Assembly (NCBI GenBank): GCA_000310025.1
Contig: FN649741.1
Span: 6,432,389 to 6,494,046, forward strand
DNA from: Ectocarpus siliculosus
Taxonomy: Eukaryota; Sar; Phaeophyceae; Ectocarpales; Ectocarpaceae
Length of the DNA stretch: 61,658 bases
Direction of reading: 5' to 3'
Position numbers and translations under genes: made by a program. The notes beneath the pieces are model-generated. The model searched no databases. It was given only the letters and a program-made list of their open reading frames with translations, and was not told the DNA's origin. Shown here piece after piece: positions 3,721 to 50,717 of this stretch; within the stretch, counting starts at the first letter, position 1, and the number at the start of each line of letters is the position of its first letter.

Positions 3721-6700
3721 CCCCCCCGCGACCTCTTCGTGGACGTGGGCCTGGTGGTCGTCTGGGGCGTCACCCGGGGGGTCGTGGGCCCGCGGGACGC
3801 CACAGCAGCGACGGGCGTGCCGAGAGAGATCGGGCAGGGAGAGGCCGGGGGCACGCGCGTTCTGGCCACGGAAGAGAGCAGGCGTACGTTGTGTACTACG
3901 CCCACGATGATGGTGGCTACTACGAAGATTACGGCGACTACGACGAAGGCTACTCCTACGACGACAGCTACCACGACGCCGGGTGCGCCCACTACGCCGG
4001 CGGCGGGGACAGCTACAGCTACTCCTCCGGGTACGAAGACAGCCGTTCATCTGACGGCGGGATCCACTACGTCTACTACCCTCCCGCCGGTCAAGATTCA
4101 TCATCCGAGCAGCCACGTCAGCCCCCCCCCGCGGGCAGCAGCAGCACCGCTTCCTCCTCGCCCTCTGCCCCTTCTCCTGGCGCGCCTCCATCTTCGGGCT
4201 ACCTCCACCTCTGCACGGCACAATCGGTGCCCCTAGGCAAGTCTCACCCCGAAGATTTTTTTGGTAGGATAGGAGTGACGATTGGAGTTGAGTCTGCTGC
4301 GTCTGCTTCGTCTTTGCTGAGTGTGGAATCTAGTGAGGGGCCGCCTGGTAGCGAGAGATGGGTAGCTGATTCAGGTGCAAGCAACAGTTTTACCAACAGT
4401 AGTCTACACATGTACGATCTGCAGGAGATCCCCGCAAATAGGAAGTATGTCGTCGTAGGTGATGGTCGACTGCTAGAAGTGCAAGCTATCGGTAGCATCA
4501 ACCTTAGTTTCTTTCAGGAGGATGAGAACGGTGAAAAAACGACGATGTGTGTTAAGCTGACTGACGTGTCTGTAGTAGAGAACCTGAGCTTCAATTTGTT
4601 TTCATCGCATGCAGTTTCTCGAAAGCAACAAATCCTGCACGACGAGCGTGGTGCAACCCTCCAAAATGGACTGCTATTTGCTAGAGAGGAAAAAGCGTCT
4701 GCAGCATATGCCATGCGGTTACCATACGACCCATCTGCAACTATAGTAGACTCTTCTGCTTTGCCTGCATTCGTGACTGCCCCCGATTCCGCCCCCGCCG
4801 TTGGCTCCACGCGTTCCCCTTCCCAAAAAGGGGGCTCCGCGGAATCATTGGTGTCCGTGTTGCGTTTCCCTCCCGCTGGCTCTGCTAGCGTAGTACCTTC
4901 GAGTGAGAGCGTCACGCCCGCTGGTCCCACAAGCGTAGTACCTTCGACTGATAGCGTCACGCCCACTGGTCCCACCAGTGTAGTACCTGAGAGTGAGAGC
5001 ATCCCGCCCGCCGCCTCTGCCGGCGTAGTACCTTCTTCGGCGTCCGAGTTTGTTTGTGTGGGTACTTTTCCGGGTATGGATCTTGGAGACACGAGTGTGC
5101 TCACCGACGAGCAGCTCATGGATGGCTATGATGACACCCCGTATCAAGAGTTTTTCCCCGCGTTTATCCCTGAGACTGATGCTGCGAATGTAGCTGCTGT
5201 TTTGGATAGCATTGATGGGGGTGCTGATTTTGACTTGGGTGCGGCCGCGCTTGGCCCTGGTGCGTCCCCGTTTGCTCTTGGTTCGACTGAAAAGTCCGTT
5301 GACATCAACCGCTTCCACCGCTCCCTTGCCCACGCTTGCGAGCCCCTATTTAGAGAAACCGCCCAGCAGAGAGGCATCGTGCTCACCGGCAAGCTGGAAC
5401 CGTGCACGGACTGCATGAAGGCGAAGGGCAGGCGAGGGTCGGTGCCGCGGGGGCCGGGAGCGCGGGCGTCCAAGCCACTCGGGCGTGTTCACCTGGACTT
5501 GTGTGGACCGCTGGTGCCTTCCCTGGGCGGCAACCTCTACCTGTTCGTCGCCGTCGACCGCGCCTCGCGGTGGAACAAGGTCTACGGTCTCCGGCGGAAG
5601 TCCGACGCGCTGGCGGCAACGAAAAGGCTGCTGGCGGACGTGGGGCGGTACGACCTCGGGCGCATCGAGTGTTTCCGCGTCGACAACGGCACCGAGTGGA
5701 CCCGTGGCGACTTCCGGCAATTCTGCGACGACAACGGCATCGGCGTCGAGTTCACCCCGCCTGGCACTCCGAAGTACAACGGCGTCGTCGAGAGCGCCAT
5801 CTGGCGGATTATGAAGGCCGGCATGGCCGCCCGCCGCAGCGCTGGCCGTGTGTTCAACGTCGACTTCGCCTCCATCCCCGGCCTCGACGAGCGCGGTGAC
5901 CGTCTTTGGATGGAATCGGCGAAGTGGGCCGCCGACGCTCTTAACCAGTCGGCGACCAAGGCCAACCCCGGGCGGCGCTCGCCGCACGAGATGTTCACCG
6001 GCGAGCAAGGGCCGTTCCGCGTGCTGCCGTTCTTCCAGCCCGGCTTCATGCGCGAGGATCGCCGCACCAAGCTCGACGACCAGGCCACCCTCTGCTTCTA
6101 CCTGAACGGCGGCGACAACCACCCGAGCGGCACCGTCAAGGTCCTCAAGGCGTCCACCGGTCGCGTCGTCTACACCAACAACGTGTCGTGGGTGACATCG
6201 GCGCCAGCCGGCGAGGGGGGTTCCGCTGGTATCACCGCTGCACCGACACCCCCCCCGTTCACGCCGCCGGTCGTCTCGATCAACTTCGGCCCAGCACCGA
6301 CGCCTTCGACTGCCGCAACGCCACCTGCCGCAACGCCGCCGCCAGCGACCACGCCGCCGTCCGCTCCCACGCCTTCACAGCCGCCCTCTGCCACTTCGCC
6401 GCCACCGTCGGCGACCCCCGCCCCTGGCCAGCCGTCTTCTGCCTCTTCGCCGTCACCGTTGGCGACCCTCGATCTAGACCAACCGCCGCCGCCGGACCCC
6501 GCGATGCCCCCGCTTACGGCTCACGCCATGCGGCAGCTTCGCCCGGGTACAAAGGCCGAGAGTATGATAGACCCGCGGCTGCCAAGCCGAACGAGATCGG
6601 GCACGAGGCACAGCACAGGACTCATCTCGATGCTAGACAAGAACACTCTGGTGTCGATGCTGGAGGCTCGGAGCGCGGTGGATGAGGAGCGCAGGGAGCT

Positions 6701-7031
6701 GGGGGGGGCGGAGGCCGGAGAGCCGGGGGGAGCGGGGGCCGGAGAACAGGCGGGAGCACTCGCAGCGGTGGACCCGGGGGCTGGAGGAGCGGGCTTTCCA
6801 CTCGCATTTGCCACGCTCCTCGCCAACCGGGAAGACATCGACGCCACGCTGCGAGACCAGCGCCCGCCGGAGCAACGCCCTGACCTTCCTCACTGCCAGG
6901 CCAGCGACCTTCGTGTCCCCAAGAGCTACAAAGAGGCCATGGCGTCGGAGCACCGGCACCTTTGGAGCGACTCTATGCAAAGGGAGTTTTATGGCTTGTT
7001 GGAAGCAGGGACTTTTACTCCGGCGAAGTAG
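3690..7031 (+). CDS. pol: Copia element 1 Gag C-terminus, protease, integrase and start of RT
   Basis: One 1113-codon frame. It opens with an Arg/Gly-rich then Tyr/Asp/Ser-rich low-complexity segment. The aspartic protease motif WVADSGASNSF follows at about 4360 and a Ser/Pro/Val repeat at 4.86-5.05 kb. The integrase zinc-binding pair (FHRSLAH and CTDCMKAK) lies near 5.31-5.42 kb, and the integrase core has VHLDLCGP, RVDNGTEW and ESAIWR as the D-D-E triad (about 5.48-5.81 kb). After a Pro-rich spacer the N-terminal RT region (KSYKEAM...LLEAGTF) runs into TAG at 7029. That stop is shared with elements 2 and 3 and is followed by the RT proper, so it is likely a programmed readthrough stop. The frame's first codon is arbitrary because the true product would start at 2341. 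Confidence 0.85.
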   Translation: MVAVAGANPHPPPRPLRGRGPGGRLGRHPGGRGPAGRHSSDGRAERDRAGRGRGHARSGHGREQAYVVYYAHDDGGYYEDYGDYDEGYSYDDSYHDAGCAHYAGGGDSYSYSSGYEDSRSSDGGIHYVYYPPAGQDSSSEQPRQPPPAGSSSTASSSPSAPSPGAPPSSGYLHLCTAQSVPLGKSHPEDFFGRIGVTIGVESAASASSLLSVESSEGPPGSERWVADSGASNSFTNSSLHMYDLQEIPANRKYVVVGDGRLLEVQAIGSINLSFFQEDENGEKTTMCVKLTDVSVVENLSFNLFSSHAVSRKQQILHDERGATLQNGLLFAREEKASAAYAMRLPYDPSATIVDSSALPAFVTAPDSAPAVGSTRSPSQKGGSAESLVSVLRFPPAGSASVVPSSESVTPAGPTSVVPSTDSVTPTGPTSVVPESESIPPAASAGVVPSSASEFVCVGTFPGMDLGDTSVLTDEQLMDGYDDTPYQEFFPAFIPETDAANVAAVLDSIDGGADFDLGAAALGPGASPFALGSTEKSVDINRFHRSLAHACEPLFRETAQQRGIVLTGKLEPCTDCMKAKGRRGSVPRGPGARASKPLGRVHLDLCGPLVPSLGGNLYLFVAVDRASRWNKVYGLRRKSDALAATKRLLADVGRYDLGRIECFRVDNGTEWTRGDFRQFCDDNGIGVEFTPPGTPKYNGVVESAIWRIMKAGMAARRSAGRVFNVDFASIPGLDERGDRLWMESAKWAADALNQSATKANPGRRSPHEMFTGEQGPFRVLPFFQPGFMREDRRTKLDDQATLCFYLNGGDNHPSGTVKVLKASTGRVVYTNNVSWVTSAPAGEGGSAGITAAPTPPPFTPPVVSINFGPAPTPSTAATPPAATPPPATTPPSAPTPSQPPSATSPPPSATPAPGQPSSASSPSPLATLDLDQPPPPDPAMPPLTAHAMRQLRPGTKAESMIDPRLPSRTRSGTRHSTGLISMLDKNTLVSMLEARSAVDEERRELGGAEAGEPGGAGAGEQAGALAAVDPGAGGAGFPLAFATLLANREDIDATLRDQRPPEQRPDLPHCQASDLRVPKSYKEAMASEHRHLWSDSMQREFYGLLEAGTFTPAK

Positions 7032-8215: not shown

Positions 8216-9606
8216 TGTACTCCCCAAACCGAAAAACAATTAATTAAATCAAACACCCCATATATATATATATTTCATAGACTGCATCTCTGCATGTATG
8301 TTTCTCCTCCTATTTTCAAAATCAGCGCTCACAACATCAGTAGTATATACATATTTCATAGACTGCATCTCTGCATATATGTTTCTCCTCCTATTTTCAA
8401 ATCAGCGCTCACAACATCAATAGTATATACATTTTTTGTCTTCACTTAAGTCAGCGCTCACAGCACTAGTGCCGTTTACTCCAACCCGTGGTCACACAGG
8501 AGGGCCGACCCCTCTCTACCCTCCCCTCCTGCGGTACGTTGCCTACAATTTTTAATGCGAGAAGAGTTCAGCACTCTCTTCCCTCTGTGTACACACGAAC
8601 TACAGTTGGCGCCCGCAGTTAAGAAATACTTTGTTAAGAAATTGAGGCTCACTTTTTCACGAAAAATAAGAAAATAGGGTTAAGAAACATAGCTCAACCT
8701 GGGTCACACAATAAGAAATGTCTCAATAAGAAACACAGCGGTGACCGCTACCTTACTACATAAGAAACGAGGGTTTACGGGGGAGCGTGTCGAATAAGAA
8801 ACAAACCCCACAGCTCTCTCGTTCTTTCCCCCTCTCCCCCGACCCCCCCCTCCGATACAAAATAGTGCATTATTATTATTATAAGTTGTACGACGAGGGG
8901 GAGTGTTATTTTATGTACTCCCCAAACCGAAAAACAATTAATTAAATCAAACACCCCATATATATTTCATAGACTGCATCTCTGCATATATGTTTCTCCT
9001 CCTATTTTCAAATCAGCGCTCACAACATCAGTAGTATATACATATTTCATAGACTGCATCTCTGCATATATATATGTTTCTCCTCCTATTTTCAAATCAG
9101 CGCTCGCAACATCAATAGTATATTATACATTTTTTGTCTTCACTTCAAGTCAGCGCTCACAGCACTAGTGCCGTTTACTCCCGTGGTCACACAGGAGGGC
9201 CGACCCCTCTCTACCCTCCCCTCCTGCGGTACGTTGCCTACAATTTTTAATGCGAGAAGAGTTCAGCACTCTCTTCCCTCTGTGTACACACGAACTACAG
9301 TTGGCGCCCGCAGTTATGAAATATTTTGTTAAGAAATTGAGGCTCACTTTTTCACGAAAAATAAGAAAATAGGGTTAAGAAACATAGCTCAACCTGGGTC
9401 ACACAAAAAGAAATGTCTCAATAAGAAACACAGCGGTGACCGCTACCTTACTACATAAGAAACGAGGGTTTACGGGGGAGTGTGTCGAATAAGAAACAAA
9501 CCCCACAGCTCTCTCGTTCTTTCCCCCTCTCCCCGGACCCCCCCTCCCATACAAAATAGTGCATTATTATTATTATAAGTTGTACGACGAGGGGGAGTGT
9601 TATTTT
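8216..9606 (+). mobile_element. Tandem TRIM-like miniature LTR element (LTR-internal-LTR-internal)
   Basis: Two near-identical units of about 695 bp start at 8216 and 8914 (tgtactccccaaaccg). Each has an AT-rich ~390-bp LTR-like part ending in cgaactaca (8604; 9299). Next come TGGCGCCCGC (8607; 9302), resembling a retroviral/gypsy-type primer-binding site, a ~290-bp internal region without an ORF, and a polypurine tract gagggggag directly before TGTTATTTT. This is the layout of a TRIM or LARD in tandem form. The first LTR lacks its TGTTATTTTA start, and the third LTR start (9598) diverges after about 10 bases. Within each LTR a ~74-bp subrepeat (tttcatagactgcatctctgc...) occurs twice. Confidence 0.65.
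8617..8805 (+). repeat. TAAGAAA motif array inside the TRIM internal region
   Basis: Eight TAAGAAA heptamers occur irregularly spaced in about 190 bp just after the putative primer-binding site. The second unit (9313-9500) repeats them with small changes (one TATGAAA, one AAAGAAA). The spacing is not that of a simple microsatellite. Confidence 0.8.
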
Positions 9607-9735
9607 TTGCGGCGCCCCCTCCGACCCCCTGCGGGCTCTGCCAAGCTCTCTGCTGTGCTGGCGATAACGCTTTGGCACAGCACACCAGACAGGCTGCGAA
9701 CCACGACATGCTGTCTGCTGTACACGGCTTTGGTG

Positions 9736-10158
9736 GTTCTCTCCGCCAACTCTCGTGAGGGCTTGACCAAGCTGGTCACCCTCAGAGATCAACAAGAACT
9801 GTAGACGAGACAGCTCGGGGACATCAAGAAGCACCTTCTAAACAACGAGCCCCTGTCTCACGATTTCTGGAAAGGCATTGAAGAGCTGCGGAGTTTGAGG
9901 TCTTCCGATATCCTTACTTTGGAGGAGCATGTGCATCATCTCAACGAACATGTGGCGTCCCACCTCAAGAAAAAGACCCCGGTGCCAACCCCTCCTCAAT
10001 CGGCTGCTGGTTCAGGCGCACAGCAGTTCGTAGGGCAGAAGCGAAAGGCATCATCGTCTTCAACAGCATCAGCCAAGAAAAAGGGGAGGGCAGCATCCAA
10101 CCCGCCGGCAGGGACTCACAACACCATCAATGCCTTCGCTAAAGGCAGTGGCAAACCG
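9736..10158 (+). pseudogene. Fragment of an unrecognised Lys/Ser-rich nuclear-type protein
   Basis: The frame reads through SREGLTKLVTLRDQQEL, a TAG at 9802-9804, then TRQLGDIKKHLLNNEPL and helical sequence. A basic tail (KKKTPV, QKRKASS, SAKKKGR) resembles nuclear localisation signals. Both sides of the TAG look like one protein, so the stop may be a CAG-to-TAG mutation. The frame ends at a possible splice donor (accg|gtgcgt, 10158/10159). No family was recognised; the 5' end merges with the third LTR start of the TRIM-like element. Confidence 0.35.
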
Positions 10159-36503: not shown

Positions 36504-39500
36504 CACCGAACTAAAAGTTCCTGCATCCAACAAACCGAAAAACTCTCGACCGACTGCATCATCCCACAACTCTGAGTGCGGGGACCGCATTGCCTCGTTG
36601 AACGTCTTCGGCTCGCGGAGGTCGCTGGCCATGCAGTGCGGAAGGTCAGGCATCTTGTCAGGTGGGCGCTCGGCGCGAAGAGCGGCGTCCACATCCTCGC
36701 GGGTGGCGAACATCGTTGCGAACATCTGCGGTCTCCCCCCCCCGCCGGAATCCACGGCCCCCCCAGCTCCCCCAGCCCCCCCGCTTCCACGGCCTCCAAG
36801 ACTCGGATCCGGCTGCGGCGGGGGCGGTAGGTCGCGGCGTCCTTGGTCTACGGCCTCCCGGGTGGCGAGCGACGAGATGAGGGTGGCCTTGTCCATCATG
36901 TCCAACAGCCCAAGGCGGTGGTGGAGAGCGGTGCCGCCACCTGGTGGCGACGGCGGTTGTTGTTGCTCATCCATGAACCGCACTCCATCGCCGCGCGTGC
37001 GGCCGTGAACTCTCGTGTCCTCCCGTCCCAACTCCTTGACGGCTCGTTTCGAAAGCGGCGGGTGCGGAGGAGCTGGGGTGGCGGCGCTGGCTGGCGGCGG
37101 CGGCGGCGGCGGCAGGCCCGGGGGCGAACGGGGCGGCGTGGCTGCGGTCGACGGTGGGGCTGATGATGGGGCGACGGAGACCGGCGACGGGGCTGAGGAT
37201 GCTGTCAAGATCGGCGGGGAAGCGGGCGGCGGCAGTGCAGTGGTCGCTGGTGCAGGCCAGGTGAACGTGAATGTCCTTGTTGGCGGGGGCGGCGGCGGTG
37301 CGGCATCGGCCGGAGGTACGGCGGCGGCCGGCGAAGGCGCCGCGGTGACCGAAGACCCCCCCCCGATGCCCGGCACCGGCGCCGGTGCTCCCGCCCGGCG
37401 GTTGACCCACACGACGTTGTTGGTGAGGGCGAGGCGACCGGTGTCAGCGCGAAGAACGACGGCGGTAGACGTGGAGTGGTTGTTGGCGCCGTGCAGGTAG
37501 AAGCACCGCGCGGATTGGACGTCCGCCTTGGTTGCCCGCTTCACGCGCATCATCCCCTCCTGGAAAAAAGGGACGACGGTCAGGGGCGGCTTCCGGCCGA
37601 AGAAGACTTCGAACGGCGACTTCCAGCCCACGTTGGCCTTTCTCGCGGAGCGGTTGAAGCAGGCGGAGGCCCACAGCGCCGACGCAAGCCACAGGCGGTG
37701 TCCGTTGGCGCCGACGTGGGGGATGGAGGAGAGGTCGGTGTGTCCCATGGCGAGGATGTGATGTCGCGCGGCGTGGCCCCCCTTCATGGCGCGCCAGATG
37801 GCGCTCTCGACCACCGCGTTTTGCTTGGGGATGTCGGGGGCGGTGTACTCGCGCCGGATGCCAGCAGAGTCGCAGAACGTGGTGAACGCGGCGCCGGTGA
37901 ACTCGCCGCCGTTGTCCATGCGGAAACACCCCGGGGTACCCATGCCGTTCATGTCGGCGAGGAACCGCTGCACGAACTTCAGAGTGTCGCTCTTGGCCCG
38001 CATCCCGTAACCCCGTTGCCACCGCGAGGCGCTGTCCACGAACATGATCAGGTACCGGGAGCCGTCCAGCGCGTCAGAGAACGGGCCCGTGAGATCGATG
38101 TGAACTTTGCCGAACGGTACCGCCGCGCGGGTGCCACGCCGCGGCACCGGGGCACGCCTACCCTTGGCTTCCACACAGCCCACACACGGCTGCATCTCCC
38201 CCACCAATCGTACGCCCTGCTGCTTTGCCGTTTCACGCATCAGGAATTCATTGACATGGCCGGTGGAGGCATGGAACAAATTAATGTCGATGGTGGGCGT
38301 GGATTTTCCTACCGAAAACGGGGAAGCACCGGGGGCGATAATCGCCAAGGCATGCGAGAGGGAGGGGGGGGCTACGATCTGCTGCTCACTGCATTCTGTA
38401 AGATAACCTCTCAACATGTCCAACTCTTCATGCTGCATAGCAAATGCAAGGGGGGGGTTCACCGCAGACTCAGGGAATTCCAGCGCATCCGGAAAAAGAT
38501 TACCAGGGGGAACAGAGTCTTTCGCATCCATCAATCCAACATCCAGAAACATGCTCATGTCCATGATCGGTAAGTCATCCTTGGATACAAGGGGGTTGAT
38601 ATCGATCTCGCGAAAATCAGTCGTGCCTACTGCAGGGGGAGTCACAATCTCGGACGATTCTACAGCGGCCGTGATGACAGGCTGAAAGTCGTGGATCGTC
38701 GTGGGGACTACGTCTACGTCAACGGGCTGAAAAGCACAATGCGGTAGCACTACACCGGAAGCGGTGGAGGGGACGCTGGGACTCGAAGGTACTACACCGT
38801 CGGATCCGGTGGGCTGGACGCCAGGAGTCGAAGGTACAACGCCGGCCGTTGCGACGGACTGGAAGCCGGTACTCGCAGGTACAACGCCGGCCGCAGCGAC
38901 GGACTGGAAGCCGGTACTCGCACTCGCACTCGAACTCGTGCCCGCTCCTGCACTCTGGAAAAGGGAGGGGGTGGCCGCAACAAATCCTGTGCCAATGCTA
39001 GGCGGGGACGCTTGGGCAGAAACACGGGGAGGGGCATCGGGGCTAGAGGTCACAGCACGACCACTGTAATCCTGGGGCAATCGAGTAGCCCAAAGCGAGC
39101 ATCCTACATCAGAGTATGCAAAGGAAAGCCTACCATCAAATAGGTGGACGCCGGTCTCGTCTAGAACGATCCGTTGCTTACGCTGCGTGTGGTGCAACGA
39201 AAACAAATTGAAGGTGATTCCAGGCACAACGTACACGTCCGACATTTGCACGCAAAAATCACGCTCTCCTCCCTGGTCTTGCATGTGGAAAGCCATGTTT
39301 ACCTTCCCAACACAATGCACGCGCAAATAGGCACCGTTACCTACTTGGATGTACTCCTTACCGGGCGGCACTGGCCTCAAGTCGAACATTTGATGGCTGC
39401 TGCTAACAAACGTGTTGGTCGCGCCGCTGTCGGCCCAAAATTGCTCTCTGCCAAAATGCGAATTCGGGTTTCGTGCAGCCAAGGCAAATCCTCTACTCTC

Positions 39501-41369
39501 ATGCTCGCTACTTGCTACCACACCACTCGGTACGATCTCGCCTGCAGGCACAAAACGTGCCATCAAGAAGTGAAGGGAGCCCGGGGCCGGTGCTGCTGCT
39601 CCGGGAGGAGATGAGTAGGGCGGGGCATGGGTGGAGTGCTGCTGCTGCTGCGACGGCTGCTGCTGGAACGTCGGCGGAGGCGGAGGCTGCGGCGGTGGCT
39701 GCGGTGGTGGCTGCTGCTGATAGTATGGTGCCGGAGGCGGGTTGTACGGCTGCTGTTGCTGGGTGTAGTCCGGCGGAGGCTGCTGGTATTGTGGCTGCGG
39801 CTGCTCCCAACCCCCATACTCGCTACTATTTGCGGGCCCCCCGTAGGGCGTGGCACCGTAAGCATGGTGCATCGCGTTTGCATGCCCGTGCGGGGGTCGC
39901 CATTGCTGCTGCTGCGGGCGAGGGGGGGCTGAGTTTCCATACCTTTGCTGCGCTCCGCGTCCGCCGTGGGGTCCGTGCTGGGGTCCACCACCCCAGCCCC
40001 CCCCACCGCGGCCGCCTTGTTGCTGTTGCTGCTGCTGCTGTTGAGGACGAGGATGGTAGTACTGCTGTTGTTGAGGCTGCTGCGGCTGTTGTTGTTGCTG
40101 CTGCGGCGGCTGTTGCTGTTGCGATGACTGCTGCTGCCGCTGCTGATGCTGCTGCCTTCGCTCTTTCTTCCGCTGCTGTTGATAGCACTCCGCGTTGGTG
40201 TGGGTTGCATACGGATGAAGGTGACAGTGCCGTTCTCCTCTGGTCTCGTCGCTCCTGTTCCGACCGTCGCCTTTGCCGTCCTGTCCACCGCCGTTCCCAC
40301 TCGACCCATTTGGGACACGTCCGTCGCCCCGGGGCGCACCGGAAGCGACGAAGGCGTGCCCCACGCCACTCTTTTGTTCCTCCTCTCGTGCGCGCACCAG
40401 GTCCGTGTGGGCCTCCTTCACGGAATCCTCTATCTGCTCAAATCAGGGGTGCGGTCCAACAGTTTCTTCTCTAATTTGTAGTCGGATGACAGGGCGGACA
40501 CCAAGTGGTCGTTGGCTTCGTTGTCGGGATACACTGTCCCGTGCGACGCTAGCTACCTCGCAAAATAGAGAACCTTCCGAAGTATTCTTGTGGGTTTTCA
40601 CTCTCATGCATCGCGAAGCTATGGTACACTCCTTCAAGAGTCTCTTTTTCTCGGCTTTCGCTTGGGGCTCGTAATACTTGAGGAAAATCCTCCATCCCCC
40701 ACTCGGGATTCCGTCTGAGACGATTTCCGACAAGATCGGCATGTATGAGATTGACGTGATGAGTAGATTCCACGCCACTACAGCCTTAGCTACCTTCTGA
40801 TCGCCATACTCAGTCTTCAGGTCTACCATGCTGATTCCTTGCCTCCCTACTGGGATGTCCTGGTGGCTCATCACTACTTCGTGGACATCCTCCTGTGCAA
40901 ACCGTGCTACCATGCTCGATCTGAAAATCAAAAGCTTCTGCTGCCCATTGTCCCCCGACTTAAACACACCATCCCAAGGCTCAATTCGTCTACTCTCAGT
41001 CATACGGAGAGTTGCAGGGTGAGGTACTGCACCGATATCCCCTGATGAGGTCTGGAGGCGACCGGCCATGGCAGTCGCAATCGCGTTGGCCAGCTCGTCT
41101 GCGGAGGGGTTGGGCGTCGGGCCCCCAGTTTCTTGCTGGTGTGGTACCCCTTGTTCCTCGTTCCCGCTCCGGAGATCTTGTGTGCTCTGCTGCTCGGCTC
41201 GATGCCGTACCTCCATCTCGGCCATCTTCTTGGCCAGTTTCTCCTCCATCATCTGCTCCATCCGAGCTGCTACTCTCTCGTTGACCAGTTCTTCGATCCT
41301 GGCTTCCTCCGCTGCTTGGCGGGCCTCCGCTGCTTGGCGGGCTTCATCTTCGCGCGTGGAGGTAAGCAT
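36501..41369 (-). pseudogene. Copia element 3 Gag-protease-integrase (Gag frameshifted)
   Basis: ATG at 41369 (MLTSTREDEARQAAEARQ). Gag matches element 2 until about 40627, where two extra bases (tacact versus tact on the plus strand) shift the frame. A second lesion near 40553 and a 7-base loss near 40441 follow. From 40421 to 36501 the frame is open for 1306 codons: zinc-knuckle variant, Gln/Pro-rich stretch, protease WADSGATNTFV, integrase FHASTGH/CVGCVEAK with VHIDLTGP, FRMDNGGEF and VVESAIWRAMKGG, Pro-rich linker, AGTFSSV-TAG. Protease and integrase thus look intact while Gag is broken, the reverse of element 2. Confidence 0.9.
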
Positions 41370-41456: not shown

Positions 41457-41809
41457 TGATCGATAATTCGGGTGGCTCGGTTCTTTGTTGTTGGAGCTCA
41501 AAGCGGGTGGCTCATGGCGGAGCGTGGATGGGTAGAAAACGTGTTGAAAACGTATTGCAAAAGTATATTCTATTCTTCGGGGGCGTGCTTGCGCTCGTAA
41601 ATCTGTCACGGCATCAAGCACGCGTCACGCTCATCACGGTTACAGTACCAAACAGACCTATCCGAATCTCCATCAAACTCTTCTCACTTCCAAGGAAAAT
41701 GTCCAGAAAGTTCTGGACCCTTCGTACCCCATCACTGCAATTTCCGTAGGTATGTGTACCAAAGACAACCCGTCATACTATGCTACGAGTACCCCCAATA
41801 TATCTAATA
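41457..41809 (-). repeat. 5' LTR of copia element 3
   Basis: 353 bp. Differs from the other LTR by about six substitutions and one 10-bp indel by eye. Confidence 0.95.
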
Positions 41810-41814
41810 AACAC

Positions 41815-44643
41815 CTGCATTTTTGCGACGTCTGAAGCGAAAGATGCTGGCCTTGCGCTAGTGTACAAAATCTCGTTCGATCCAGCTTCTCTTCGTAATG
41901 AGACGGTTGGACGTCTGCTTTACAGCCCCCTTTGGTCGTCCAAGAAACGTCGGCGGCTTGAGCGGCTGGTGATTGATCTGCGTAGTGTGCGGGCGGCGGA
42001 TGTGGGCATCTCCGCTCGTTCGAGGGAGGATGTGGACACTTCTGCACGTTCAAGGTCTGGTTCGGCGGGCTCGGGGGGTCGCCGCTCTCAAATGGGGGGG
42101 CAACCCTCGGAACCTTCCGGGTGGGGCACTTCTGCGTCTGCTGGGTCCTACCATTCCTCTCGTACTCACGACCGCCCGCATACACAGAAATACCTCAGGC
42201 AGGATGCAGGCCGTTCGCGAGGACATGACACCCGCGGACGCACGGATGCTCATCCGGGTGCCGGCGGGGGTAGCCACCGGAATGACGGGGGAGGTAGCCG
42301 CCGGAATGCCGGGGGGGGGGAGGCTTCTGACCGTGGCGGGCACACTCATCTCTCCTACTATGGTCCGACTAGTAGCAGGCAAGTACAGTATGGTATCGCA
42401 GGACAAAATGTGCCGTTTTTCCAGCAGCCGTGGGCCGTAGATGCGCTTGGAAACCCGTACGCGTTGCAGCCGCCGTTCATGGGGTCTGGGGGTCAACAGT
42501 GGCCGGTGACAATGCAGGACCCGATTACTGTCGCTTCTGCCCAAATGTCTGCGGCGGCCATGCCCCCGGTCAGTTCTTTGCCGCCTCACATCGCTGAAAC
42601 GTCGGTCAAAGCGACCCAACCCATCGTTGACCACCCCGAGCCTGGGCTAGAACGTGCACGACAGATATTGCATCGCATGTCTTTGTCGAGTTTTCCCCAG
42701 CAGCGGCAACCGTCGGCGACGGCGTCGCCGTCGGTAGCGGCTTTTGACGTGCCGTCGTCGAGACTTCCGTCGCCGATGTCGCCGCTGTCGGTGCCGTCGC
42801 CGCCGGTACCGCCGTTGCAGATGCCACCGCAGCCGGTGCTGCAGCCATCGGTGCCGCCGGTGCCGATGCCGCAGGTACCGCAGCCGTCGGTGCCACCGGT
42901 GCCGCAGCCGCCGGTGATGCCACAACAGCCCGTGCCGTTAGTAAAGTCAGGGCCACCATCAGTAGCCTCCGCTTTGCCATCGCATACATCATTTGCCGCT
43001 GTGAAAACAGAGGTACCGCCCCCCGCCTCCGTTGTGAAAACGGAGACGACACAGGTTTCTGGGGTGGTACCGACGCTCTCCCAACGTGTTTTGCCACAGG
43101 AACCACCGGTCTCGGCTATCGCGGTGTCGGTAGCGAGGCCACCGCTGCCGGCCGTGCACGCGGCCGCCTGCGATTCCGCTGATGACCGGGCACTGCCCCT
43201 GTCGTCTGCCGGTGCACGCACCGCCCAGGCACAGCTTGATGCAAACGCCGTTGCCGCCGCAGAGGCGTACGCCCTCAGCGTGCGCAAAGGATACGGCAAG
43301 CTTAAAGTGAACGAATTGTATGCGGTAGTCCCGCTTCCCCCGGCAGAATTTTCTGCCTTCGCTCGCTCGACCGAAAGTGTGTTGGCTGAAATCCTGTCGG
43401 CCGCCGATCCCTCCGGCAAGCAGACCATCAAGTCGCCTCATGGGTGGCTGGATGGTATGCCCCCTTTCACAAGCGTGTCCTCATGGCCATTTCGAACCCT
43501 CAAGGCGCCAATGCCGCAACCCGCGAATTGGTGGATTCTTCGTTTTCTCAGGTGAAATGTTTCTTGGAGACGAAGGACAAGTCGGGGCCTTCGGCATACC
43601 GTCGGCTGCTCAAACTGCTCGCGGATGAGTGGGAACCGAAAGGTTTCAACCGGGGCATCGACAAGCTGCAGGATTTTGGTGTGCCCAACGGCACGCCGTA
43701 CAGCAAATTCGTTACGAAGTTTAAGGCGTTAGCAATGTCGGAGTTGGCCTCGCATAGGGCTTTCGCGCCGGATCTGCGCATGGTACAGCGTGCGCTTCGG
43801 GACGCTTTGTTGGAGCAGTACCCGAATGTTCTCTCGTCTTTGCCGTTGAAAGAGAAGATTCTCCACAACGTGGTGTTTAGTGATCAGGATGAGCTTTGGG
43901 ATGCTTTGTCGTCGGAGGAAGCACTAAAACACTCGCCCGCCTGCAACGGCGACCGTTATTTTACCACTGTCACCTCTGGGTTTTCATCGGCGCCCACACG
44001 AGCCATGACTGCGACCGTGGGGCAGCAGCGGCCGCCACCGCCGCCGCCGCTGCAGCCGTCCGCGTGGTCGCCGGGAACACAATTTCCCGCCGGGGTGATG
44101 GCTATCGACCCTGTGCCGTCCGATAACACATGTCCATTCGAGCAGGACTACGACTGCGGGCCGTTGCGTGGTCACTACGGCTTTGTGTACAGCGTTGTGG
44201 CAAGTATGGCTAAGATGGACCCCCATTTGTTTACACCGCTGTTGACCCCTGCCGACCGAGCGCAAGCTCTGCGGCGATTTTCTGGCCAATGTCTCAACTG
44301 CGGGCAGGCGGGCCACAGCCTGAAAACTTGCCCGTATGCTTTCACCAATTACACCGGCCTCTTAAACCCGGCCATTGCTTCGCATGCTGATAGCGTTCAG
44401 GTTTTTCAACGTTGGCAAAGCCGCATGAAGTCGCACCGCCCGCGTGTACACAATAAAAATGGCCCGGGTAAGAGCAGCGGCCATACACAGGGCGACGGCC
44501 GCCGCTCTGGGAAACGTAACTCAACTACACACACACCACCTCCGGCGCCGGCCGTAGGCGCCGCCGCGACCCCGGTGCCCGCCGCCGTACCTGGAACTCC
44601 GTACACTCGAAGTTCCGGAACCCCGCACTCGCGGGGTAACTGA
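41815..44643 (+). pseudogene. gag: Gypsy Gag, C-terminal part with CCHC zinc knuckle
   Basis: Continues the Gag frame after copia element 3 (CIFATSEAKDAGLALVYKIS). A Ser/Gly/Arg-rich region is followed by a Pro/Val/Gln-rich linker, then a helical region (AQAQLDANAVAAAEAYALS). Near 43446 the frame shifts by one base within a run of G (ggg, where gggg would keep frame), and the capsid-like domain goes on (FHKRVLMAISNPQGANAATR...FNRGIDKLQDFGVPNG). A canonical C-X2-C-X4-H-X4-C (CLNCGQAGHSLKTC) lies at 44290-44331. It ends at TGA 44641-44643, in the same frame as Pol. Confidence 0.85.
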
Positions 44644-44658
44644 CACGCCGGTGACGGC
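44641..44658 (+). promoter_or_regulatory. Gag UGA stop with Pol in the same frame (possible readthrough)
   Basis: Gag ends at TGA and Pol is open in the same frame from the next codon (CAC) for 1355 codons. The base after the stop is C, a leaky context. Three bases further on GCCG-GTGA-CGGC (44647-44658) can form a 4-bp stem with a GNRA-type tetraloop. Gammaretroviruses use an analogous arrangement with UAG and a pseudoknot. The stem here is short, so the structural part is weak evidence. Confidence 0.45.
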
Positions 44659-47600
44659 CTTTTGCACACATCGCCGTCAACAGCACCGGGTGTGCGCTGT
44701 ACGACTAGTTCCCAAGATGTTCGTATCACACAGACGCCTTCGGGCTCGCCTATGTTAGTTTCCCAACCTTTTATTTCTCAGATGTCGCCTCACGCCTCAT
44801 CACAGCCTGTTTTGGATGACCGACGTGACTCGTCGGCGCCGAATGCAGTCTTGTGGTGTGGGCGAGGGGCCGACCAGACTTCGGGTGTCTCACGGACGCT
44901 CGTCCCGATGTCTACGCCCCCCGGAGGCATGGCTCCGGCTTCTCCCACCGTTTCGGCGGCTCCGGGTGATCTCGTCAACCACGTTGGAGCACAGGAACCT
45001 TTCGGACAACCGCAGGCCCGCCGCGGTGGCTCGAGTACGCTTGTACCCACCGCGCCCCCTCCGGACCCCTCGCGACGTTCCTCTACGGAGCACCAACGTC
45101 GCACGGTGCTGACTGCACCGCCGTTGCCGAGCGCAAGTAACGGTTTCCCCAAATCGGAAGGTTCATGTTCTTTGTCACGAAATAGCGGTCACGAGCCTCC
45201 CGCGGCCGCTGACCATGTTGGTCGAGCGCCCGTGATGAAGGCCGCTTTTAATGAACGGGCCTACGCCGACGTTTTGCGCGAAAACGCCCGCGTAGACCGC
45301 TTGGTTTCGCACGCTTCTGCGGCTGGCTCACCGCTCTTGCCTGCCTCTCCTCGTTACCCACAATCCGGCCCGCCTTCGGGCGGCACCCAGATTGTCCTGC
45401 CGGTTGCCGGTGCCATTTCTCTTGACGATATTTCTTCAGGGAAGGTAAGCGCACCCGCGCGGCAGGCCCCTGTTTTTGACGGTTGTCAGGAATACTATAA
45501 CGATGAGGTTTTCCTCTTTTGGAAACCGCCGTCCTTTCTGTCTAACTGGACGCCCTGTGAATTCTCGGTTCATGGCGTTCGCTACGTGTGCGGCGAACAG
45601 TTCATGATGGCGGAGAAAGCCCGCATTTTCGGAGATGATGCCGCTTATGCCAAAATCATGGCTACCTCCGACCCGAGAGAACATAAGTCCCTTGGTCGCA
45701 AGGTACGCGGTTTTGACCATGCTCTATGGGAACTCCGGCGCGAGGATGTTGTCTTTTCGCTTTTGTATGCAAAATTCGCCCAAAATGCTGACGCGCATGA
45801 ACGTTTGTTGGCTACGGGTGACAGACAGATAGCGGAGGCCAGTCCTTATGACGGATTGTGGGGCATTGGTGTTGATGCCTCCGATCCGCGTGCGGCGTCG
45901 CCCTCCAAGTGGACTGGTAAAACCCTTTTGGGCAAAGCGCTTGTTGCGACGCGCACGCTTCTGCGTGTGCGCCCGGTCGAACCCGATAAGCCTTTACGCC
46001 CTGAACACTCGGGGCCACCTGCTCCCGTGTGTCCCACTATCCACGAAATTGCGCCCCCGGGTGAGGACTCTTTGGTCCATGATTCCTCGCCCGAGGACGC
46101 GCGCGGCCCGCTGGACGTGCCAGCCAACACGCACGCAGACCACTCGAAACAGGTGCTGCATATTGCCTCTGCTGCTTTTCGCGAAGCCGCCGCTTCCCCA
46201 CCGCCGTTATTGGCGGAACACGGCCCAGATTTGGTGAGCGGTGATGTTTTAGTAGATTGCGATACCTCTACGACGCGAGTCCGCGTTCATAGTGGTACCG
46301 GAGCCGTGTGTACAGCGCATGGTGTAGCCCTTTTGAACTCGGGCTCACCTTCATCTTTCATTGGTGATGCTTTCCTTGAAGCCATGGAGGCGTCAGGAGC
46401 TGCATCCGTCCACAGTCGTCGTTCGGTGCCCGTTCGGCAGTGGGGTGGTTTTGGCTCTGGCAATGCTCTTGAAACCACCTCATCCGTGCGGCTGTCCGTT
46501 CAATTTTTTTATGGTGATAGTGCCACCGCTTCGTTAGCGGTGTGGGTGTATGTTGTCCCAGCTGCCGCCATGGGTCACGCCCTCCTTCTTGGACGTGATA
46601 GTTGGATGCGTTTAAACTCTCGTTTGTCCACTACTTTGCCCACGCGGTCGGCAAGTGGACGCATCATGGAAAAACTTTCTCTGTCATCGGATTTTGCGGC
46701 GGGAGCTTCCACGTATGTCGCTGGACCCTCCGCCCCCGGGGCATCTTACTTCCTGCGGCACGCCGGCAGGAAGGGTGTCTCCCTTTCCGATAAACCCACT
46801 TTGACGAGGGTGAACCTCGTTCGCAACTCTGGCACCCCCGCTCTCACCGGCAACTATCTTGTCACGTTTTTACCGAAACACGGCGCCCTCTCGGCGTCGG
46901 ACGCGTTTGTTTCGGACGGGCCTCAACACATCCCATTGACAGGGTGCGCCGAGTTGGAGCCAGGTGAGGTGCTTGGAGTGGCGACTGCCCCACTTGTGCA
47001 GATTCCGCTTGCGTCGATTGATCCTACACCGCAGACGGCCGAGGGTGATGGGTTGAGTGACCCTCCGCCGCCAGCCCGTTCCGCGGATGGGCCGCCGTCT
47101 CGCGTGAATTATTTGCATTCAAACATCCCGGTTGCGGATCCGGAGATCTCGGATTCCCCCGCGGCCTCACTGCCGCCGAAACCGCCGCCACCGGATCTGT
47201 TGGAACGCCTCTCAGAAGCGCAGCGAGTGAGTTTTCGCGAGTTGTGGCAACGTTTGCCTGCACATTTGCACGATGTGACTTTTGATTTACATGACTCGGG
47301 TTGGACCCCGGAAGCCATCGACAGCCTCGCGGATGTGCTGTGTGACTTTTCGGATGTGTTTTCGCGGTCACCGTCCGATTTCGGTTGCTGTTCCGTGAAA
47401 CCGTTTCGTTTGGAAGTGCCCCCGGGAACGAAACCGTTGGCCTCGCGTCCCTATAGGCTCAACCCACTGGTGGAGAAAAAGGTCGATACAATTCTCGATC
47501 AATACCTTGCTGCCGGTCTTATTCAGCACTCGCAATCGCCGTGGGCGAGCCCTCTGGTTGTCATGCCTAAAAAGGACGGCAATCTGCGTTTGACCGTGAA

Positions 47601-48602
47601 CTACAAAAAGCTTGACAAATTGTGCAGCCTTGGTCAACAACCGCAGCCGCGAGTTGGCCACATCATCGATTCCCTGCACAAGGGCAAGGTGTTTTCCATT
47701 TTCGATCTTAACTCCGCTTTCCACCAAATCACCGTCGAAGAGGACACGGTTCAACTTACGGCGTTTTGTACGCCCACGCAACTTTTCGAGTGGCTCCGCA
47801 TGCCTCAGGGAAGCTCCGTGGCACCGTCGTGGTTCACCATGGTTATCAACGAAGTGGTTAAAGGTCTGGACCATGTGCTTGCATACCTGGACGATGTGAT
47901 TGTGTTTGACGCCGACCCCATCCACCATGTCGCCAACATACGGCTTTTTTTGGAGCGTTTGCGCAAGTTCAACCTCAAGCTTTCTCCTTTCAAGAGTCGC
48001 GTCGGCGCTAAGGAGGCTGTTTATTTAGGTCACACAATCTCCCCTGCGGGTGTTAGTCCTCGTGCCGATAAGGTCGAAGCCCTCACAAAAATGCCGCTGC
48101 CTAACAACGTCAAAAGGCTGCGTTCCTTGCTGGGTGGGCTTTCGTATTACCGCAAATTCATCAAGGGTTTGGCCATGCGCGTGAAACCACTCACAGACCT
48201 TTTGCGTAAGGACGCGAAGTTTTGTTTCACGCCGGCTATGGCGGATACTGTCAAAGAACTCTTGGCGAAACTGTCCGAACCTCCGGTTTTGGCTTTCCCG
48301 GATTGGGACGCTGTCGCAGATGGCAGCCGCCCTCTCCGGCTTTGCTGTGACGCCTGTATCGATGGTTTTGGTGCGGCCCTTGAACAGGAACAGGCCGATG
48401 GTTCAATCCGTCCCATTCTGTTCGTTAGCCGCGCTACGCTCGAATCCGAGCGCAATTGGACAGTGCTCGACTTGGAAGCTGGAAGTATCGTGTGGGCAAT
48501 TAAACGCTTACGCGGTTATTTTTGGTCTACGCACTTTCTGATTCATTCGGATCACAAGGCTTTGGAGAGCATCGTCAAGGTGGGTGAACACAACGCCGCT
48601 CG
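44644..48602 (+). CDS. pol: Gypsy Pol: NADAR domain, protease, reverse transcriptase, RNase H
   Basis: Residues counted from ATG 44662. 1-279: Pro/Ser-rich linker. 280-436: NADAR domain. About 540-650: aspartic protease whose motif reads LLNSGSPSSFIGD, so the catalytic Asp is Asn559 (AAC at 46336-46338). About 915-1100: RT with VDTILDQYLAAGLIQHSQSP, FDLNSAFHQI, LRMPQGSSVAPSWF, AYLDDVIVF (YLDD at 47884-47895) and AVYLGHTIS. About 1215-1310: RNase H with CCDACIDGFG, RNWTVLDLEAGSIVW and HSDHKALESIV. At about 48600 a small deletion removes the expected RVQRW segment and shifts the frame; the homologous sequence resumes as LEFLSSFKYTLVYRKG in the next frame. This copy is inactive by frameshift, by the protease change and by loss of integrase, but RT and NADAR core residues look intact. 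Confidence 0.9.
45499..45968 (+). other. NADAR (YbiA-like, DUF1768) domain within gypsy Pol
   Basis: About 157 codons. Conserved family blocks appear in order: FLFWKPPSFLSNW, GEQFMMAEKARIFGD, ATSDPREHKSLGR, the FDHALW block, LLYAKFAQNADAHERLLATG, EASPYDGLWGIG, KWTGKTLLGKALVATR. NADAR proteins act on N-glycosidic bonds of NAD/ADP-ribose-related compounds. Members are reported to cleave riboflavin pathway intermediates (YbiA) or to remove ADP-ribose from guanine. All blocks expected for a functional fold are present and the domain has no internal stop, although the rest of the element has decayed. Its role in a retrotransposon is unknown. Confidence 0.9.
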
Positions 48603-49660
48603 AGTTCCTTTCCTCGTTCAAATACACCCTTGTCTACCGCAAAGGCACTGCCAACGCCAATGCGGATTTTCTTTCGCGGTTGCCCCTGCCGGCAACCGAC
48701 GCGGATAGACACGGTGACACCAGTATCGCAGTCGATGACGCCGCGGGCGTGTATCTCATTCGTGCGTGCGGACGGAGTTATCACTCTAGTTCGACGCCGA
48801 ACATCGGCTTGGGTGGGCTTGACATTGACGATCAACGAGACGCGTTGGCACACGCGCCTCTGACGGAGGATGACTTTGGGGACTTCCGCCGTTTTTGGCC
48901 ACAAATGGTCCTGCCGGCTCTGTCGCCCTCCTCCGTAGTGGATTCGTCGAAATTTTCGCCGCCTGGTGTTTTCGCTGTCGTTTGCGATGCAGCCCCCGAG
49001 AGTTCTGTGCCCGATGGACCTCCTCCGGCTTCCGTTTCTGCGGAGCCAGACGTCGCTCCCTCGTCCACCGTCGGAACCTCCTCAGCTGCCCTGTCGTTTT
49101 CGCGTGGCCCTCTGATTTCTTCTCGTACCCGGGCGAGAACGAATTCGGCCTCGGGCATGGCTCACAGCCGTCCCAATTATTTTCCGCAACAACCACGGGC
49201 CGTTGTGGTGCCCAGACCGCCGCGACCTCCTCGAACGCCGGCCCGGTCGAGCCGTGCCGCGCGGTCTACGAGAACGGTGGGTAGCCCTACTTCTGGCCCG
49301 CTGCCTTCTCCGGCGCCGGCTGAATTGCAGCCGCCGCCGCCCGCGCCTGCTGCCGCCACCCCGGCGCCACCGCCGCCCGCGACGCCCATGCCGCCAGTGT
49401 TGTCGCCCGCAAGTACTAGCCCTGCGACTTCCGTGGTGCCGCCCACGGCCGCTGAGGAAGCTCACCTCCGCGACTGTGTGCATACATTCTCGCATGCCGA
49501 TTGGGCCCGAGAACAGCTGTCAGAAAGTGAGTGTGTAGCGGCTATACATTTTTTGTCGTTGGGATCCCCGGCGGTTTTGCCGGATACATTCTGGGATTGC
49601 TTGCCCTGTGCGCGACGGCCGGCGTTGTCTGATGTGGTCGTGAACCAGGCCCCTGCACCT
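48603..49660 (+). pseudogene. Gypsy Pol C-terminal remnant (frame 2, no integrase)
   Basis: Follows the frameshift with KGTANANADFLSRLPLPAT, the usual end of the gypsy RNase H region, then about 80 residues and a long Pro/Ser/Ala linker. A segment HADWAREQLSESECVAAIHF resembles the region that normally precedes the integrase zinc finger. No HHCC or D-D-E residues follow; the frame runs out at 49981 in unrelated-looking sequence. Confidence 0.7.
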
Positions 49661-50206
49661 ATCGCCGGACAACCTGTCCCCGGCGGGGTATGTGGTCGCC
49701 AGGGCCGCCATTCCCGCCCTTGTCACAAGGGAGGCACATCTGACGACAAAGGCCCTTGGCGGTGTAGTGGGGCGGCAGCGCTGGCGTTGGTCGGCCACCG
49801 TTCAGGGTTGGAATTCCGCTGTACTCGTAGAAGTCTGATTCGCGGGCGCTCGCCTCCTTGCAATCTTCGCACCATCGATAGAACCTACCCACGAACGTTC
49901 GGTGGCTGTCCATGCCCGCGGACGTTGCCGTCGGATCCCGGCCCGCACCCGCTTCCGAGGGCCCGCCCTGTGAGCGAGTGAACGTATGAAACCAACTGCA
50001 TCGACGACAATGGAGCAACGTAGTCAGATGGAGGCACACAGCCATCGCTCGCAGGGTTTCTTCAACACACTTCAAGGGCGAGTGAGAGCAAAACGCAAGT
50101 GATTGTTCCACCTCCAGAGACTCGTGAAAGGCATCAAATTTTTAGCATCAATACACACTCTGGATGGCGACGGCAACAAGAATTTAACATTATAGATGAC
50201 GAGAAA
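49661..50206. other. No supported gene
   Basis: Sequence after the last gypsy similarity. A 150-codon minus-strand frame contains scattered Cys (CEDCKE, CRQMCLPC) but matches no family I recognise, and the plus frame is Arg/Pro-rich without motifs. Confidence 0.35.
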
Positions 50207-50717
50207 AACAACAGAGGCAACGATAACCTGATAATGGAATCTTCGACCCAGAGGCCACACAGCTTCATTCAAAGGGTCAAATCGCACGCCTTGGTAGCAT
50301 CACAAAGAGGGAGAGGGGATGCCATGAGTACGTTGGGACGCGGGGTATCAACAACAACCAACAACAACAATCCGTTCACAATATACCCGCAATCTTACCG
50401 CCGGCAGAGGCGTTGGAGACGTGAGCGTGGCCTTCGCAGGTGCACTTGTCGGCATCCTTGCACGTGCAGCCGGCGATGTTGCAGCAGTTTGCTGAAACAG
50501 AACATCATGTCGAAAGGAGAGGTCACAACAACGCCATTAACAAAATAACAACAACAACAGAGGCAACGATGAGCTGACAATCGAATATTCGACCCTGAGG
50601 CCACAAAGCTTCATTCAAAGGGTCAAATCGCACGCCTTGGTAGCATCACAAAGAGGGAGCGGAGATGCGGTGAGCACATGGGGCGCGGGGCATCAACAAC
50701 AATAACAACGACGACGA
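50207..50717. repeat. Direct repeat of ~165 bp (50207-50371 and 50555-50717)
   Basis: Both copies run from cagaggcaacgat through ttcattcaaagggtcaaatc and cgccttggtagcatcacaaa to an aacaac-rich end, with about 15% differences by eye. A third, short relic (cagaggcaacga) is at about 50887. On the minus strand each copy follows one of the two Cys-containing exons. Confidence 0.9.

Follow-up and report, generated by a model that had tools for sequence, protein, structure and literature searches.

A YbiA-type NADAR domain at the N-terminus of Pol in a decayed Ty3/gypsy retrotransposon of Ectocarpus siliculosus

The window, a 61,658-nucleotide stretch of the Ectocarpus siliculosus genome (contig FN649741.1), holds a dead copy of a Ty3/gypsy retrotransposon lineage whose Pol polyprotein starts with a NADAR domain of the YbiA type. 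We consider the chances evenly balanced that this domain is a packaged enzyme that removes ADP-ribose from guanine (guanine-ADPr) in the nucleic acid of the element. An earlier note on the same DNA had proposed a NADAR domain inside a gypsy polyprotein at 45499-45968 and had tentatively supposed the family to be undescribed. The latter was not borne out: the NADAR-gypsy fusion in Ectocarpus is already known, since PMC12477816, in its account of Ectocarpus elements, reported a NADAR-bearing Gypsy lineage (e.g. Gypsy-12_Ec32) in September 2025. Added here are the analysis of selection, a census of active-site residues, the divergence of the long terminal repeats (LTRs) and the co-inheritance of the domain with the rest of Pol.

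The open frame at 44644-48708 of the forward strand (1354 aa) gave Pfam matches in the order NADAR, RVT_1 (E 4.4e-28) and RT_RNaseH (E 4.2e-23). The NADAR profile PF08719 covers frame residues 292-441, that is, window positions 45517-45966 (E 3.7e-44; 151.3 bits against a cut-off of 35.1), confirming that the proposed domain is real and that the coordinates proposed for it fit. It is also matched by the NCBIfam equivalog TIGR02464 ('riboflavin biosynthesis intermediates N-glycosidase') with 136.6 bits against a cut-off of 73.7, and its AlphaFold model, which matches structure 8bau, has the NADAR/YbiA fold. Residues E46 and K53, equivalent to E88 and K95 of the E. coli C7 NADAR, are present in 29 of 29 copies and invariant across 69 aligned sequences, and E126, the Glu of the xEASP motif, is also found in all 29 copies. 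These sequence features indicate that the domain belongs to the NADAR superfamily, YbiA type, with its active site intact. Two residues before E126 the window has Ile, so that, by numbering only, the catalytic Asp (D171) of the DarT1-linked type is absent.

The whole genome was searched with PF08719 and the best 150 of 230 candidates were scored. The window copy gave an E-value of 6.2e-44 and all 150 scored matches passed the cut-off, and chance is therefore excluded as the source of the match. A reverse transcriptase (RT) match of the lineage lies 0.8-4.5 kb downstream in 129 of the 150, supporting the proposal of a gypsy family that carries NADAR in many copies. In the reverse comparison, a listed NADAR was found upstream of 123 of the best 150 RT protein matches (median distance 2056 bases), and upstream of 28 of 34 RT DNA matches in subfamily A and 24 of 34 in subfamily B (the best 34 of 41 and 34 of 40, respectively). 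Eight of the 27 RT protein matches without a listed NADAR were inspected, and two of them do carry one, beyond the best 150 scored. At least six subfamilies, A (that of the window) to F, were distinguished by eye and by tree; the window NADAR is 50-59% identical to those of subfamilies B, C and D.

The 20 loci of 10 kb fetched for comparison were the top 20 by NADAR score and hence biased toward good copies. In all of them RT, RNase H and integrase (IN) matches lie behind NADAR, as confirmed by Pfam in L021 and L022, and with the protease (PR), recognized by motif only, the family copies show the Ty3/gypsy domain order PR-RT-RNase H-IN. Flanking LTRs were present in both copies examined at both ends: a B copy on contig C14 (LTRs of 315 bp, K80 divergence 0.0096, element of about 13.0 kb) and an A copy on contig C3 (LTRs of about 268 bp, K80 0.023, element of about 13.2 kb).

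To analyze selection on the domain, Nei-Gojobori sites were used and changes were counted against one reference, a simple method in which hotspots are not modelled. For subfamily A the best 40 of 69 candidates of a DNA search were scored, and all 24 other copies listed at 95% identity or more were taken. Changes relative to the window that were common to at least two copies comprised 9 nonsynonymous (N) and 17 synonymous (S) changes, a ratio of nonsynonymous to synonymous rates (dN/dS) of 0.16 (p 5.7e-6), whereas private changes (N 84, S 37) gave 0.69 (p 0.067); the two classes differ (Fisher p 0.0014). Four older copies (82-87%) gave dN/dS values of 0.15 and 0.69. This is the contrast left when source lineages are under selection and their copies decay once inserted, and for the source lineages of the subfamily purifying selection is well supported. 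The earlier suggestion that the domain was under selection until recently is thus upheld as regards past purifying selection. Compared with four sister copies, the Pol spacer before NADAR, measured over 44644-45459, had a dN/dS of about 1.0 (N 32, S 12), beside 0.45 for RT and 0.29 for RNase H. Between subfamilies the NADAR remains alignable (pN 0.26-0.35) while synonymous sites are at or near saturation, indicating that the constraint is old.

The phylogeny points to kinship with bacterial NADARs. A tree built from 63 NADARs unites the 13 sequences of the lineage in a single clade (bootstrap 100, Shimodaira-Hasegawa-like approximate likelihood ratio 99), in which P0068, a protein of Ectocarpus sp. 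CCAP 1310/34, pairs with L029 (100/99). The next node, with moderate support (91/76), joins this clade to 13 sequences from Myxococcota, Planctomycetota and three unnamed proteins; other members of these phyla (L053, L066, L067) are placed elsewhere. A quick tree of 86 sequences gave values of 99 and 97 for the same groupings. The best eleven bacterial loci, from Polyangia, Nannocystis, other Myxococcota and Planctomycetota, are 50-54% identical to the domain; in some other bacteria a shorter part is matched at 52-53%, and identity alone is not decisive. A viral origin is not favoured: the best phage places among the matches listed (12 of 686 records) have 46% identity and seven IMG/VR loci 44-48%, and the latter fall outside the gypsy clade in the trees. 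Eukaryotic hosts were sampled through two fungal NADARs (P0051, P0061) and giant viruses were not specifically sampled; a host or giant-virus intermediate may have taken part in the capture.

Nonsynonymous distances pair subfamily A with D (one copy) and B with C in every domain compared (A-D and B-C distances of 0.258 and 0.258 for NADAR, 0.230 and 0.168 for RT, 0.113 and 0.150 for RNase H, 0.202 and 0.153 for IN). Since the pairing is the same in all four, the domain travelled with the element, and a single ancestral gain of a bacterial-like NADAR, co-inherited with RT, RNase H and integrase among the compared subfamilies, is well supported. Esi0017_0056, an Ectocarpus protein which raised stress tolerance in Arabidopsis (PMC7922944), also contains a NADAR, for which the nearest relatives outside Ectocarpus are prokaryotic; the protein could be related to the retrotransposon lineage or be a relic from it.

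The window copy itself is decayed. On the forward strand, its Gag region (41810-44640) is 5'-truncated, homology to a sister copy (L126/L027) beginning at 41810, and is split between frames 41750-43555 and 43390-44643 by a break near 43.4-43.6 kb. A CCHC zinc knuckle, CLNCGQAGHSLKTC, read from the sequence near the Gag C-terminus (44290-44331), gave a Pfam zf-CCHC_4 match under the cut-off (E 0.05). Gag ends in a TGA stop (44641-44643, next base C) that shares the frame of Pol; behind it lie the apparently unconstrained Pol spacer (44644-45516), NADAR, an aspartic protease region with rough limits (46240-46620), RT (47566-48039) and RNase H (RT_RNaseH and RT_RNaseH_2, 48229-48600), in agreement with the proposed placing of NADAR between the Gag stop and the protease with RT and RNase H following. 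The protease was assigned by the motif LLNSGSP; Pfam named no protease between NADAR and RT in this frame. The active-site codon (46336-46338) is AAC, giving NSG. In the motif comparison a match was obtained in 18 other copies, all of which have DSG, but not in L012 and L027. A second frame break near 48.6 kb puts the remaining RNase H and linker (48601-49640) in another frame, and at 49640 the homology to four sister copies (L010, L023, L027, L028) ends. The integrase match present, in some cases partially, in 20 of 20 fetched copies is absent, and no LTR pair was seen within 38-53 kb or between 36-44 and 49-56 kb. Because it is truncated at both ends, lacks an integrase match and an LTR pair and has an NSG protease, the copy is, judged from its sequence, dead and cannot move by itself.

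These findings qualify the earlier observation that the domain had no internal stop while the rest had decayed. NADAR is free of stops, but so are the protease region, RT and most of RNase H, which share its single unbroken frame, and the Gag stop is regular for the family; the true decay lies in the truncations, the Gag break, the change of DSG to NSG and the break near 48.6 kb.

Several structures were observed beside these parts. A Ty1/copia-like polyprotein frame with Pol_BBD and rve matches (36504-40442, reverse strand) lies shortly upstream of the 5' truncation point, and a direct repeat of 134 bp (89% identity, 50204-50337 and 50550-50683) just past the 3' truncation. In the Pol spacer before NADAR, L021 has a tandem duplication of about 112-118 bp (2549-2774, units 92-97% identical), also found at the equivalent place in eight other B copies (L012-L015, L018, L019, L024, L026). 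L019 carries a 1.6-kb direct repeat (5251-6894 and 8357-10000 in element orientation, 99.5% identical) that doubles RT and RNase H, either within one copy or next to it. Unusually long open frames with a NADAR match, of 10,887 and 6,365 residues, occur at G000:C3:3913787 and G000:C489:435177.

A single stop within the 450 codons before NADAR was found in 10 of 21 copies (the window and the 20 loci). It is TGA-C in nine of these and TAA in one (L009). The recurrence of TGA-C in frame with Pol suggests that Pol is translated by stop readthrough. Since its coding sequence follows the Gag stop, NADAR would be produced solely through readthrough, as part of Gag-Pol. It would then be packaged into the particle with RT, and would either be freed by the protease or stay fused. 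There its substrate may be guanine-linked ADP-ribose, or something closely related, in the RNA, cDNA or particle of the element, whose N-glycosidic bond it would cleave as a house-cleaning or counter-defence enzyme, much as retroviral dUTPase does for uracil. As outlined in PMC1224870, dUTPase is N-terminal of the protease in betaretroviruses and within pol in non-primate lentiviruses, and retroviral dUTPases are described in the virion (PMC8961515). Within the pol of these lentiviruses the enzyme lies between RNase H and integrase. In the assays given in PMC11125620 all NADAR subtypes tested, YbiA included, cleaved guanosine-ADPr and not thymidine-ADPr. From the fold, the active-site residues and the biochemistry of other NADARs, it is plausible, as the earlier note proposed, that the domain reverses host ADP-ribosylation of element nucleic acids or alters NAD metabolites. 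In the literature consulted here, nucleic-acid ADP-ribosylation is known mainly from bacterial toxin-antitoxin systems; if NADAR strips ADP-ribose from element nucleic acids, brown algae would provide a eukaryotic case of such modification as retroelement control. Given the selection signal, the idea can be put to the test on a single small domain whose structure is modelled with confidence.

Several results weigh against a guanine-ADPr hydrolase in the particle. In PMC11125620, YbiA and phage NADARs failed to rescue cells from DarT1 despite their in vitro activity, and the true substrate can therefore differ. In the DarT1-linked E. coli C7 NADAR, hydrolysis of guanine-ADPr was described as not requiring the Glu equivalent to E126, so conservation of E126 alone is no proof of that activity. 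An exon-by-exon search of the genome, which may miss split genes, gave no match to a DarT-like transferase, and its four PARP matches are only partial. The NADAR frame is broken by an indel or stop in 9 of the 24 close A copies. The NADAR of subfamily B had a dN/dS of 0.78 (N 18, S 7, 10 copies), no different from neutral, beside 0.23 for RT and 1.21 for RNase H (few changes were counted, and B is a young subfamily), and pairs of subfamily C (3 copies) a pN/pS of 0.57. Six of the eight inspected RT matches truly lack the domain at its expected place, so that single copies do lose NADAR; L150 apparently lost it by internal deletion. Catalysis, expression, readthrough and packaging are all predicted.

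Alternatively, NADAR could act on proteins or ADP-ribose signals, removing or binding ADP-ribose made by host PARPs at breaks or on Gag, RT or integrase, and so ease integration or escape. We think this unlikely: the genome has the partial PARP matches and one Macro match, but the NADAR activity presented in PMC11125620 and in the C7 NADAR work is on guanine-ADPr, with no protein substrate there. The TIGR02464 match would agree with a metabolic role, in which the domain cleaves N-glycosidic bonds of riboflavin intermediates or NAD derivatives and the element retains it for some secondary cellular effect. This appears quite improbable, as a housekeeping reaction would bring an element little benefit and the domain would be present only in Gag-Pol amounts. 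We give little credence to a role in RNA processing or in repair of the transposition intermediate or primer tRNA, suggested by the describers of the Ectocarpus lineage in their account (PMC12477816) and in line with the ties of NADARs to RNA-repair systems (PMC9503650), for which the same exon-by-exon search gave no KptA match. It is equally hard to credit that NADAR is a passenger or structural domain lacking enzyme function: the spacer before it varies freely and some copies have lost the domain, but its active-site residues were kept despite near-saturated synonymous sites and shared changes have the low dN/dS given above. A one-off chimera or assembly join, for which nothing was found, is rejected by the 150 scored genome copies, the public proteins P0065-P0068, which are the same fusion, and the published description.

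The packaged guanine-ADPr hydrolase could also be one case of several. P0069 (2004 aa, from ENA), a Gypsy-type Pol, has the order protease-RT-RNase H-[weak Macro]-NADAR-IN, with a sub-threshold Macro match at 1076-1158 and NADAR at 1237-1382; this different insertion place is probably an independent capture, and our search of literature listings found no publication of a gypsy element in which NADAR separates RNase H from integrase. Of two other long polyproteins, P0071 (2839 aa) has NADAR followed by RT, and P0070 (3333 aa) NADAR and a C5 DNA methylase with no RT match, so that its retroelement status is not shown. The quick tree places all three, possibly new, outside the brown-algal clade, on long branches and with unsure mutual relations. 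Two capture positions are thus in view, before the protease in the window family and between RNase H and integrase, beside the weak Macro match, in P0069. Independent capture of enzymes that remove ADP-ribose, by retroelements in several eukaryotic lineages and at the Pol positions of retroviral dUTPases, with packaging of the enzymes to erase host ADP-ribose on element RNA or cDNA, is a speculation we hold to be rather unlikely; if it is true, brown algae and other hosts would possess a so far undescribed defence based on nucleic-acid ADP-ribosylation.

Among known systems, the Ectocarpus lineage as characterized in PMC12477816 is closest, being likewise a gypsy lineage with a YbiA-family NADAR at the Pol N-terminus and mostly bacterial hits; the comparison with Gypsy-12_Ec32 is by description only, not by sequence. 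That lineage is credited with a putative C-terminal chromodomain; here one copy (L021) gave a weak Chromo match after integrase, under the cut-off (E 0.016; 15.6 bits, cut-off 25.1). E. coli YbiA (2b3w) and the P. nicotianae NADAR (8bau) have the same fold and the same active-site E, K and Glu, but the window NADAR is embedded in a retrotransposon polyprotein and its closest sampled kin are proteins of Myxococcota and Planctomycetota. The DarT1-linked NADAR antitoxins (PMC11543638) are of the same superfamily and their E88, K95 and K115 have equivalents in the window family, which, unlike them, has no Asp at the place of D171 (by numbering), a Glu at that of E173 and no DarT match in the genome. 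The NADARs in ORF1 of Tx1 long interspersed nuclear elements of the Pacific oyster, noted in PMC12477816 as divergent hits, also belong to retrotransposons, but to non-LTR ones. Retroviral dUTPase of betaretroviruses and non-primate lentiviruses, a captured, virion-carried enzyme N-terminal of the protease or within pol, is comparable in its way of working only, being an unrelated enzyme with an unrelated substrate.
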